64,000 nt of DNA from Candidatus Aminicenantota bacterium (GTDB lineage: Bacteria; Acidobacteriota; Aminicenantia; JAMOAD01). The stretch spans positions 1-64,000 of the forward strand of contig JAMOUT010000057.1 in the NCBI GenBank assembly GCA_027061995.1, in the 5' to 3' direction. Numbering within the stretch: position 1 is the first letter of the stretch; every line of letters starts with the position of its first letter. The notes beneath the pieces were generated by a model. The model saw only the letters and a list, made by a program, of their open reading frames with translations. It ran no database searches and was not told where the DNA came from. Positions 41,996 to 46,689 of the stretch are shown in pieces. The position numbers and the translations under genes are program-made.

Positions 41996-44900
41996 ATGAA
42001 AAACTTAAATCGAAAAATATTTAAAAGCTCTGTTCTTATATCAATCGGAACGCTATTAACAAGATTATTCGGTTTTGTCCGGGAGATTCTTGCAGCCGCT
42101 TATTTCGGGGGCGGTAAAACATATGATGCTTTTGTTGTGGCTTTTCAGGTGCCGAATCTATTCAGAAGGGTGTTAGGAGAGGAGATGATTGAAAGGGCTT
42201 TTCTCCCCCCTTTTAAGAGGATGCTTGCTGAAAACAGAGTGGGGAAAGCCAGAAAATTTTTGTTAAAAACAGCAATGATAGTATCAATTTCATCTTTTGT
42301 ATTAACCTTGTTGATGTATCCGTTTATATCATCAATAATAAAAATTCTTGCCCCCGGACTTTCACCCGAATCATTTGCTACAAGTGTCGCTCTTGCGAAA
42401 ATATTGCTACCTTTTCTTATCCTTATATCAATCTCATCTTTCGCCGGCGCGATTCTCTATTTTTCGGGTAAAAGTATATTATACAGCACAGCTCCGGGTA
42501 TTATGAATATTATTGTTATCATCTTTATTATATTATATCATTCTAAGTTGGGGGTTAAATCAATAGCGATTGCTTATCTTCTCGGTGCAGCGGGTTTTAT
42601 CTTTTATCAGCTTCCGGCTCTTATTAGAATTTTAAAAAACCTAAAAGGGAGTTCTGAAAAAAATAAAACAAAAGAGGTGAAAAAATCTGTTGTGGAAGCG
42701 GGGAAAATCCTGTTTTCATCGGCTATTTCAAAAGGGGTGCAGATAGTTGATACGATTGTCGCTTCTCTTGTAGGCTCGGGTGCCATATCATCGCTGTGGT
42801 ATAGTTTCAGATTGATTCAGCTTCCCTATTCGATTCTTTCTCTTTCAACATCAAGGGGGATTGCCCCGGAACTCTCCAAATTGAGGGGTAAAAAAGATAA
42901 GAAAAAATTCGGTCAAATCATAAATCTCGGGATAGATATAAACCTTATAGTCCTGACACCTATCATCTTGTTTTTCATGATATTTTCAAAAGAGATTATA
43001 ATGTTGTTTTATAAGAGGGGAGCTTTTAATCAGGCAAATGTTATAAATACGGCACTTCCCTTTTTCTATTATTCTCTCGCTCTTTTGCCTATGGGATTTA
43101 TCGGTTTGTTGAACAGGGTGTATTCCGCTCTTGAAGATAATAAAATCCCTCTGATTTCAGCTTTAACAGGGGGAATGATAAATGTGCTTTTTGATTTTAT
43201 GCTTTATAAAACAAGTCTGAAGCAGGGGGGGATTGCACTTGCGACAGCGATTGCTCTTTTTGTTCAGGTAATCATACTTTTTGTTTCTCTCAGGAAATAT
43301 AAAATTAAAATTAAATATATGAAGATTATAGAAACAATGGCAAAAATAATTTTTTCATTTTTCTTTTTTATCCCCTCTCTTATTATTTTTAAACTTCTTT
43401 TAAAAGGTAAAGTAGGGTTTTTTTCTGTTTTAATGATTTTATCAGTTGCATTTATAATCTCTTTCGGAATATATGCTGTTATAATTTATGAATTTTGGAG
43501 AAAAAGATACTCTGTTAAAAAAAGGGTTATATTAACCGGAGGTGGAACAGGGGGGCATGTTTACCCCTCTCTTGCGATTTACAATATTTTGAAAAAAAGA
43601 AATTTTACTTCGGATGTTCTTTATCTCGGAATAAGAGGGAGAGCCGAGGAGATAATAGTTCCTAAACATAAAATTAAAATCGAATATATCAAATCATCCC
43701 CCTTTGCAGGAGGTTCGCTTATAAGTAAGATTAAATCTCTTTTTATTATTATCCATGGTGTTTTAATCTCAATAAGAAAAATACTGAAATTCAGACCTCA
43801 TATTATTATTGCAACCGGTGGTTATGTATCCGCTCCGGTGGTTATGGCGGGTTTTATATTAAAACCTTTCTTGAAATTAAAAATTATTGTTGAAGAGCAA
43901 AACCTTGTCCCCGGAATGCTTAATAAAGCTGCATCTCTTCTATCCGATATTGTCCTTGTAAATTACAGGGAAACATCATATTTTATTTGGAGCAACAAAT
44001 GTATTCATGCGGGATATCCTGTCAGGAAAGAGTATATTGAAGATTATGATAAAAAAAAGATAAGGGGACAGTTGGATATTCCCAAAAGCAAGTTTGTGAT
44101 TCTTGTTACGGGCGGTTCTCTCGGTGCACGAAGTATCAACAGATTAATCGGTGAAAGTTTGAAAGAGTTGTCAGTTTTAGAAAATGTTTTCATTGTTCAT
44201 AGCGTAGGATTGGCTGATAATGGTTGTTACAATGCTTATGAAGATACTAAAATGATTCTCAAACAAAATCTGAAAAAACGGTTTAATGAAGAGGACTTTA
44301 TTGGTTATAATAAAAAAGGGAAAGTTTTTTACAGAGGATACAGATTTTTACATAATATGGTTGATTATCAGAAATCCGCAGATTTAATAATAAGTAGGGG
44401 TGGAGCCGGAGGAATAGCGGAGATAGCGGCTCTTTCAAAACCCTCCGTTATAATTCCCAAGAGAGGACTTCCCGGAGATCATCAGGAACTTAATGCAATC
44501 AATCTCGGGGAACGGGGAGGAGCTGAAATCATTTTTGAAAAACATGATAATAATAAAAATATCGATTATATAGATAAAAAAGAGTTTTTAAAGATTCTCC
44601 AAAGGTTGCTCAAAAGTAAAGATGAACTTAAGGGATTAAAGATGGAAGTTTCAAAATTCTATAAAAAAGATTCCGAAAAAATCATTTATGACTCCATATA
44701 CAGGTGTGTGGAAGGGGAAACACTTGATTTTATAAGCGAGATAATAGAGCCTGAATTTGTTAAATTTCAAAGACAATTCGATAGTCTTATTCTGTATCTT
44801 GATAATTTGGTTAAAGATAAAGGAAAAGATAATCTTTATTATCGTTTTTATAATATTAAGATAGATGATTATATGAATTCAAAAAATTTCCTGATTGTTA

Positions 44901-45478
44901 ATAAAGGGATAAAACTTATAGGTAGTTTGAGGAGGGAAGATCTTTATCCCTGGATTTATAAGAATTTTGATTCTTTTAAAGGATTTTTAAAAAGAAATAG
45001 TCTTGTTGCTTTGAAAAAATCGGAGAAATATTTCCCATTCTTTAAAAAACTTATTAAAAAAGGGCTTTCGGATTCATACTATGAGGTTCGCAGAGAGGCG
45101 ATTAAACTTTATTTGAAATTTTATAAAGAGATTGGCAATGACAGAATTATCATAAAGAAAATAAAACGGATGATATTCTCAAAAACCGAGAGTTTTGAAG
45201 TAAAATCACAAGCTATAGTAGCATCCGTTATATTTTTAAATGAAACCGAGTTTACAGAGTTTAACAAGCGGTTTCTTTATGCAAGAAACATAAGATTGAG
45301 GGAAGCTCTCCTTGAAAGTATTGAGTTCGGACTTAAGAACGGATTTTTAAAAGATAAAAAAAGGGTGAAAACATTCATTAAAAAAATGCTGATAACCACT
45401 TCCGAGTTTAAACCTGAATTTAGAGTCAGGGGTAAGTATATGAGGGTTATCAGGGAGGTTAGCAAACAAGATGATTAA
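41996..45478 (+). CDS. murJ-murG: MurJ-MurG fusion with C-terminal HEAT-like domain
   Basis: One 1160-residue frame. Residues 1 to about 505 are the lipid II flippase MurJ: about 14 membrane helices with the motifs TRLFGFVREILAAAYFG and PNLFRRVLGE holding the conserved arginines. Residues about 508-880 are MurG, the GlcNAc-transferase that converts lipid I to lipid II: GGGTGGHVYP, GGSLGARS, RGGAGGIAEIAALSKP and DHQELNA are all present. Residues about 885-1160 are helical and look like HEAT repeats. At the junction (RKRYSVKKRVILTGGG) there is no stop and no ATG, GTG or TTG close to the MurG start; the nearest Met is inside a MurJ helix about 30 residues earlier. The MurG part would lie in the cytoplasm, directly below the flippase. 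mraY follows with an 8-base overlap. Confidence 0.95.
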   Translation: MKNLNRKIFKSSVLISIGTLLTRLFGFVREILAAAYFGGGKTYDAFVVAFQVPNLFRRVLGEEMIERAFLPPFKRMLAENRVGKARKFLLKTAMIVSISSFVLTLLMYPFISSIIKILAPGLSPESFATSVALAKILLPFLILISISSFAGAILYFSGKSILYSTAPGIMNIIVIIFIILYHSKLGVKSIAIAYLLGAAGFIFYQLPALIRILKNLKGSSEKNKTKEVKKSVVEAGKILFSSAISKGVQIVDTIVASLVGSGAISSLWYSFRLIQLPYSILSLSTSRGIAPELSKLRGKKDKKKFGQIINLGIDINLIVLTPIILFFMIFSKEIIMLFYKRGAFNQANVINTALPFFYYSLALLPMGFIGLLNRVYSALEDNKIPLISALTGGMINVLFDFMLYKTSLKQGGIALATAIALFVQVIILFVSLRKYKIKIKYMKIIETMAKIIFSFFFFIPSLIIFKLLLKGKVGFFSVLMILSVAFIISFGIYAVIIYEFWRKRYSVKKRVILTGGGTGGHVYPSLAIYNILKKRNFTSDVLYLGIRGRAEEIIVPKHKIKIEYIKSSPFAGGSLISKIKSLFIIIHGVLISIRKILKFRPHIIIATGGYVSAPVVMAGFILKPFLKLKIIVEEQNLVPGMLNKAASLLSDIVLVNYRETSYFIWSNKCIHAGYPVRKEYIEDYDKKKIRGQLDIPKSKFVILVTGGSLGARSINRLIGESLKELSVLENVFIVHSVGLADNGCYNAYEDTKMILKQNLKKRFNEEDFIGYNKKGKVFYRGYRFLHNMVDYQKSADLIISRGGAGGIAEIAALSKPSVIIPKRGLPGDHQELNAINLGERGGAEIIFEKHDNNKNIDYIDKKEFLKILQRLLKSKDELKGLKMEVSKFYKKDSEKIIYDSIYRCVEGETLDFISEIIEPEFVKFQRQFDSLILYLDNLVKDKGKDNLYYRFYNIKIDDYMNSKNFLIVNKGIKLIGSLRREDLYPWIYKNFDSFKGFLKRNSLVALKKSEKYFPFFKKLIKKGLSDSYYEVRREAIKLYLKFYKEIGNDRIIIKKIKRMIFSKTESFEVKSQAIVASVIFLNETEFTEFNKRFLYARNIRLREALLESIEFGLKNGFLKDKKRVKTFIKKMLITTSEFKPEFRVRGKYMRVIREVSKQDD

Positions 45479-46577
45479 ACTTTTTTTAGAATTTCTAAAA
45501 GGGATAGGAATAGATTACGGATTTTTCAGATTAATCAATTATCTTAGTTTCAGAACAATAATAACCGTCGTAAGTTCTCTGTTTTTTTCTTTGTTGCTCG
45601 GGCATAAATTTATCCTTTTTTTATACGGTAAAAAATTCAGAGATTCATCGGGTGAAGTTTTGTCTATAAATGCTTATTCAAAAAGGGGAACTCCTACTGC
45701 CGGAGGCTTGCTTATAATCACTTCAACTCTTCTCTCGCTCTTGCTTTGGGGGGATTTTAAAAATCCGTATTTTTTGATGTTATTATTCGGTTTTATATAT
45801 CTCGGATTTGTGGGGTTTGTGGATGACTTTCAAAAAACAAGGTTTAAATCATCATTATCAGGGTTAAGTGAACTTGGTAAAACAATCCTGATTCTACTTT
45901 TTATTTTCCCTTTTACTATATTTTATTTTTCAGATTTATGCACTATCCCCAAAGCTATAAAAACGAATATATATATCCCCTTTTATAAGAATCCCTTGAT
46001 AAACATAGGGGAGATAGGTTTTATCATATTTATTTTTTTTGCTATGTTTTCCATTATTAATGCCGTAAACATAACCGATGGTCTTGATGGTCTGTTGAGC
46101 GGCACCAGCTCTCTAACGATAGGTGTTTATTCGATACTTGCCTATATTATGGGTAATTCGATTGTTTCCTCTTACTATCTGTTCCCTTATATTAAAGGGG
46201 TAGGGGAGGTTACTGTTTTCGGAGCCGCTTTGGTAGGCTCTCTACTGGGATTTTTGTGGTATAACAGCTATCCTGCGGAAATGTTCATGGGTGATACGGG
46301 CTCTTTGGCTATCGGAGGAGTTCTGGCAATGATGGTGTTTTTTACAAAACAAGAGATGCTTTTCTTAATAGCGGGGGGGATATTTGTCTTTGAAATTTTA
46401 ACCTCTCTTCTGCAGGAAAAAATAGGGGATAGGATAGGTAGGAGAATACTCTACAGAGCTCCTTTTCACCACTCTATGACTCATAGGGGGATAGCCGAGC
46501 CAAAAGCTGTTTTAAGATTATGGATAATAGCGATTATTCTTGCCGCAGTATCATTGCTGTCTTTAAAAGTCAGATAA
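45471..46577 (+). CDS. mraY: Phospho-N-acetylmuramoyl-pentapeptide transferase (MraY)
   Basis: A 368-residue polytopic membrane enzyme with about ten helices that attaches UDP-MurNAc-pentapeptide to undecaprenyl phosphate, making lipid I, the substrate of MurG. Signature regions are GFVDDFQKTRFKSS, INAVNITDGLDGLLSG, EMFMGDTGSLAIGG and the terminal HHSMTHRGIAEPKAVLRLW, which corresponds to the family's HHxxExxGWxEPKV segment. Its ATG lies inside the last codons of the murJ-murG frame, an 8-base overlap implying translational coupling. A very strong terminator follows. Two genes thus encode three consecutive steps of the lipid II cycle. Confidence 0.97.
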   Translation: MIKLFLEFLKGIGIDYGFFRLINYLSFRTIITVVSSLFFSLLLGHKFILFLYGKKFRDSSGEVLSINAYSKRGTPTAGGLLIITSTLLSLLLWGDFKNPYFLMLLFGFIYLGFVGFVDDFQKTRFKSSLSGLSELGKTILILLFIFPFTIFYFSDLCTIPKAIKTNIYIPFYKNPLINIGEIGFIIFIFFAMFSIINAVNITDGLDGLLSGTSSLTIGVYSILAYIMGNSIVSSYYLFPYIKGVGEVTVFGAALVGSLLGFLWYNSYPAEMFMGDTGSLAIGGVLAMMVFFTKQEMLFLIAGGIFVFEILTSLLQEKIGDRIGRRILYRAPFHHSMTHRGIAEPKAVLRLWIIAIILAAVSLLSLKVR

Positions 46578-46638
46578 TATGCTGATTATGAGAGATGAAA
46601 AAATTATAATTAGTAAAAAATCGATTAATAGATGAATT

Positions 46639-46672
46639 AAAAAAAAGGGGGGGGATCCCCCCCCTTTTTTTT
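46639..46672. terminator. Bidirectional terminator, A8G8-AT-C8T8 palindrome
   Basis: A perfect 34-bp palindrome of eight A, eight G, AT, eight C and eight T. It offers a G/C stem followed by a T-tract in both directions and separates the convergent mraY and beta-barrel genes. Homopolymer runs of this length are prone to slippage. Confidence 0.92.
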
Positions 46673-46689
46673 ATTAAGAAGGTGGAATG

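Follow-up and report, generated by a model that had tools for sequence, protein, structure and literature searches.

How lipid II gets from its cytoplasmic synthase to the flippase is an open question, for which free diffusion, an affinity gradient and a complex are considered. The 64,000-nucleotide stretch of DNA analysed here (the window), which belongs to a Candidatus Aminicenantota bacterium, contains a gene that raises the question whether both proteins can be a single polypeptide and, if so, what the link might do.

Domain organization of the MurJ-MurG-HEAT protein

As proposed in the preliminary description, a single frame of 1160 residues comprises MurJ, MurG and a helical tail (Table 1). 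The ORF coordinates also reproduce the 8-base overlap of mraY with the 3' end of the fusion gene. The interval originally assigned to the fusion (41996-46577) includes mraY, and the fusion proper stops at 45478.

Table 1. Features of the fusion locus in the window, and examples of an extra domain found in the opposite-order proteins.
Feature	Position	Strand	Basis and remarks
MurJ-MurG-HEAT fusion gene	41996..45478	+	ATG start, one intact frame, 1160 aa
MurJ (lipid II flippase) domain, residues 1-503	41996..43504	+	Pfam, TIGR01695, AlphaFold helices (14 predicted membrane helices), structural match
MurG (lipid II synthase) domain, about residues 504-887	43505..44656	+	GT28 N and C, structural match, signature residues
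Linker (about 888-944) and HEAT-type helical repeat tail (about 945-1160)	44657..45475	+	Helical pairs in model, homologous tails
mraY (lipid I synthase), 368 aa	45471..46577	+	TIGR00445; 8-base overlap with fusion gene
Perfect 36-base inverted repeat, A and T runs on flanks	46638..46673	unassigned (.)	Likely bidirectional terminator
Extra domain between MurG and MurJ (examples)	L032:3185-3514, L038:4560-4892, L043:5929-6267, others		

Pfam places MurJ, the N-terminal GT28 and the C-terminal GT28 domain in this order along the protein, without a gap for a separate start. Structure prediction bears out the tripartite organization: the AlphaFold model, calculated from a 27-row alignment (pLDDT 86.7), displays a MurJ-like part with 14 long membrane helices, a Rossmann pair like that of MurG and, in the helical-repeat part, paired helices arranged in a stack. 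With a pTM of 0.63, the relative placement of these domains is not established by the model.

The N-terminal part is identified as MurJ both by Pfam (residues 34-476, 242.8 bits, cut-off 27.4) and by the equivalog model TIGR01695 (295.4 bits, above the curated cut-off of 235.55). Its helices adopt the MOP fold of MurJ, and a Foldseek search returned MurJ structures as the closest solved ones (TM-score by target 0.83), with E. coli MurJ 9ukv as the best match. Residues R23, R29, D44, R57, E62 and R272 correspond to R18, R24, D39, R52, E57 and R270 of E. coli MurJ, respectively. R29 and R272 are invariant across the set of MurJ-first proteins, and their E. coli counterparts, R24 and R270, are essential residues of the MurJ cavity (PMC6465408). 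The key residues of both enzymes had been described as apparently intact; this holds for most substrate-binding residues of MurJ and for the signature residues of MurG, but E. coli E273 is lost, and most MurJ-first relatives carry Q, N or H at this site.

The central part harbors the N-terminal (residues 511-647) and C-terminal (residues 701-856) domains of GT28, both scoring above the Pfam cut-off, and superimposes on MurG of E. coli (1f0k) and P. aeruginosa (3s2u) with TM-scores by target of 0.81 and 0.89. The tested residues of the MurG signature (GGGTGGH, GGYVSAP, EQN, GGS, E at E268, HQ..N) are invariant in 19 MurG-containing rows. The score with the equivalog model TIGR01133 is 207.8 bits, below the curated cut-off of 250.25, and the domain is therefore termed a divergent MurG-type domain. 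The other HEAT-linked MurGs tested reach 203-244 bits and thus likewise stay below the cut-off of 250, whereas canonical MurG of Aminicenantes scores 293-301 bits. This missed cut-off may explain why annotation pipelines have not flagged the architecture.

The tail of the window protein reaches no Pfam or NCBI family threshold by itself, but homologous tails of relatives match Pfam HEAT_2 with up to 71.6 bits as well as solved HEAT and alphaRep structures, and in the AlphaFold model the tail consists of paired helices at high pLDDT.

The reported lack of a start codon near the beginning of MurG is confirmed by a codon scan, according to which residues 480 (ATG at 43433, within the final helix of MurJ) and 532 (TTG at 43589, within MurG) have no further in-frame ATG, GTG or TTG between them. 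Comparison between members of the fusion group reveals that third codon positions are the most variable in all regions, including the junction, which is the pattern expected of a translated junction. In most comparisons among relatives, conservation is lower in the junction and the linker than in the domains.

Genomic context of the fusion gene

Together with mraY, the fusion gene forms a two-gene operon. The upstream neighbour is located on the opposite strand, and the inverted repeat behind mraY, with its A and T runs, likely ends the operon. MraY scores 267 bits with TIGR00445 (cut-off 192) and is the only MraY above the cut-off in the genome, a draft of 104 contigs encoding one MurJ, one C-terminal GT28 domain and one bona fide mraY. 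Searching its contigs for a second MurG or MurJ yielded none. Contig 16 carries a compact division and cell-wall cluster (L189, 3096-14619) in the order class B PBP (ftsI-type), murE, murF, murD, ftsW, murC, ftsQ, ftsA, ftsZ, which is complete except for mraY and murG. In the usual dcw order, mraY is situated between murF and murD, and murG between ftsW and murC. Since MurJ, MurG and mraY are present as sole copies and the cluster lacks exactly mraY and murG, the fusion operon represents the cell's route to lipid I and lipid II. Contig 100 encodes MreB and a second SEDS protein.

Fused, split and opposite-order forms in related genomes

The suggested search for recurrence in related genomes detects the complete fusion in one frame in all four other family genomes examined (62, 62, 62 and 49% identity, full length). 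Four further Acidobacteriota MAGs (L073, L074, L076, L077) encode MurJ-MurG-HEAT with a MurJ identity of 47-49%; three of these match the genomes G346, G388 and G153, which belong to another family and class (f24). In a tenth case (G412), the sequence breaks off at the end of its contig. One member of the window's family (G002) possesses a second, very divergent MurJ-like protein (L056:299-1831) with 25% identity, which forms the longest branch of the MurJ tree.

Separate murJ and murG genes in close relatives, which the preliminary description regarded as a potential refutation, do occur (L079, L173, L174) but constitute a genuine alternative arrangement and no assembly error. L079/G466, the single-contig genome G254 and G332 carry murJ as a gene of its own that overlaps murG-HEAT out of frame, and relatives with this split arrangement include genera of one family. 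Because close relatives manage with separate genes, the fusion is not obligatory. In the split relatives, about 8-10 residues of MurG precede its first strand; at the corresponding site the window protein has no start codon. In L084 (titled Candidatus Fermentibacteria), murJ, murG-HEAT and mraY are arranged in a row.

At least nine families across the phylum encode MurG-HEAT proteins that measure about 660-700 aa and have no MurJ attached, and the succession of MurG-HEAT and mraY is widespread among Acidobacteriota. Among 53 distinct HEAT-encoding loci, mraY lies directly next in 51, while the remaining two run off the contig. Across loci, the HEAT repeats at the C-terminal end and the adjoining mraY are thus constant, whereas the position of MurJ varies. 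In other families of the window's class murG is a separate gene, which in most of the families checked lies a few kilobases behind mraY. Large MurG frames of families f3 and f9 (up to 1134 aa) were considered as further fusions and rejected, as they contain only GT28 domains behind upstream-extended frames.

Two families of the same class, f4 and f5, display the opposite order: a single frame of 1071-1328 aa contains MurG, then MurJ, then HEAT. A model of the representative from G007 shows MurG, MurJ and paired helices, and solved MurJ and MurG structures are its best matches. At the position of R270, MurJ of this form mostly lacks arginine (L048, L032, L039 and relatives), with an arginine often found three residues, or one helical turn, later; L039 additionally lacks the equivalents of R18 and E57. 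An extra domain of about 100 residues is located between MurG and MurJ in f5 and part of f4 (Table 1) and is absent from G007 and its close relatives. Assignment of this insert as an FHA domain was discarded, since the profile matches are just weak (Ki-67, KIF13B, EmbR; E 0.4-2). In several f5/g7 genomes (G018, G012, G031, G046, G050; two of them 93% complete) the search for MurG returned no match, which may reflect an assembly gap, strong divergence or loss.

In the MurG tree, a branch with 100/100 support separates the HEAT-linked sequences from the canonical MurG sequences of the same class. The proteins with the opposite order make up one group (93/95), while the MurJ-first form requires at least three changes. 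Both fused orders and the split cassette also cluster in the MurJ tree (98), apart from canonical MurJ including that of the Aminicenantes families f2, f6 and f7; this tree contains several long branches, and its details are uncertain. A single fused ancestor for both orders is rejected by the AU test (joint clade, p about 1e-71), and so are the MurJ-first fusions as one clade (p 0.0066). The simplest reading is therefore that MurJ and MurG-HEAT were fused on at least two occasions, in opposite orders, and that additional fusions or fissions took place among the MurJ-first proteins. The AU test likewise speaks against MurG of f1, f4 and f5 forming one clade (p about 4e-10). The grouping of MurG from the window's family with families of other classes suggests that the cassette may have entered this family by lateral transfer; a MurC tree gave no resolution of where the family belongs.

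Possible function of the fusion and competing explanations

MurJ has its N- and C-terminus on the same side of the membrane. Given this general topology and the even number of helices in the fold, MurG and HEAT would be cytoplasmic in either order. The protein is probably a real bifunctional lipid II synthase-flippase, in which MurG is tethered beside the inner mouth of the flippase and the HEAT tail acts as a docking platform. The MurG domain would convert lipid I to lipid II on the inner face, and MurJ, fused at the N-terminus with its last helix ending in the cytoplasm, would flip the lipid II made by MurG outward. The covalent link would fix a 1:1 ratio and keep MurG locally concentrated where the flippase opens inward, so that lipid II might be captured quickly and less of it would diffuse away. 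Native mass spectrometry has shown that MurJ takes lipid II from MurG and MraY, with the tighter binding of lipid II by MurJ as the cause of the transfer (PMC9046198). Direct hand-over of lipid II from MurG to MurJ is plausible.

The HEAT tail most likely forms a docking platform for a partner, for which MraY, encoded by the overlapping next gene, would be the first candidate. Recruitment of MraY or of the cytoskeleton, as suggested in the preliminary description, is plausible. Known interaction partners of MurG are MraY, MreB and Mur ligases, and the enzyme has been described as a scaffold (PMC6420597), a role that a HEAT docking domain would fit. More tentatively, MraY, MurG-HEAT and MurJ could constitute a dedicated lipid II export module of Acidobacteriota, with HEAT as the platform that gathers all three in one complex; in this reading, MurJ would have been welded on at least twice, in opposite orders, because selection favors direct transfer of lipid I and lipid II from one active site to the next.

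The most serious competitor to a bifunctional enzyme, unlikely but deserving real weight, is a fusion that is neutral or driven by expression: a frameshift in the overlap of the coupled genes murJ and murG-HEAT would have joined them, with equal expression as the utmost benefit and no gain in transfer. The relatives with overlapping, out-of-frame murJ and murG-HEAT (L079/L172, L173, L174) are indeed one frameshift away from a fusion, and fused and split states of the MurJ-first form interchange on the tree (at least 3 changes). However, the same frameshift cannot yield the opposite order, which needs a rearrangement, and fused forms are kept across whole families. It is improbable that the frame gives rise to two proteins, either by proteolysis at the linker or by an internal start at ATG 43433. 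The in-frame ATG at residue 480 and the low conservation of junction and linker relative to the domains would allow for this, but with a start at residue 480 MurG would retain most of a membrane helix, and the start site used by MurG of the split relatives has no counterpart in the window protein.

It is very unlikely that the MurJ domain, which belongs to the MOP superfamily, now serves a different lipid-linked substrate, in which case the protein would be no lipid II synthase-flippase. MOP flippases are diverse, E273 is missing here, and R270, in some members together with further residues, is lost from the opposite-order clade; yet the domain exceeds the cut-off of TIGR01695 and is the sole MurJ of the genome. 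Moreover, MurG makes lipid II only, which counts against a change of substrate in its partner. An assembly or frameshift artefact, conceivable in a genome of 104 contigs, is ruled out for practical purposes, since the fusion recurs in eight other assemblies, where the junction has diverged but stays in frame.

A bifunctional synthase-flippase would differ from known systems mainly in its architecture. With its full 14-helix fold, its score above the cut-off and its conserved arginines, the MurJ domain resembles MurJ (MviN, TIGR01695/PF03023); unlike canonical MurJ, it is fused to MurG and HEAT and falls into a clade with other MurG-HEAT-linked copies. Similarly, the MurG domain shares both GT28 domains, fold and signature residues with MurG (GT28, TIGR01133) but belongs to the divergent HEAT-linked clade. 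Bordetella MurE-MurF is a natural fusion with both activities demonstrated (PMC6420597) and, like the present protein, whose open frame is conserved in relatives, combines two consecutive peptidoglycan enzymes in one polypeptide. In contrast to these two soluble ligases, a peripheral transferase and a polytopic flippase appear to be combined here, which would join synthesis to transport. Mycobacterial MviN, a MurJ fused to a pseudokinase and bound by FhaA (PMC12599244, PMC11898655), is likewise a MurJ with extra cytoplasmic domains for regulation or docking, but carries no biosynthetic enzyme, whereas here the enzyme that makes the cargo is attached. A literature search, with most subscription papers outside its reach, found no description of a MurG-MurJ fusion in either order or of a MurG-HEAT protein. 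While the enzymes are known, the architecture, its two orders and the link to mraY thus appear to be new as far as the literature was searched.

The repeated joining in opposite orders suggests that these bacteria gain from keeping synthase and flippase physically together. With a natural synthase-flippase fusion in two orders, and relatives with split genes as controls, the passage of lipid II becomes directly testable, and the fused protein represents a ready-made target for structures of MurG bound at the flippase entrance.
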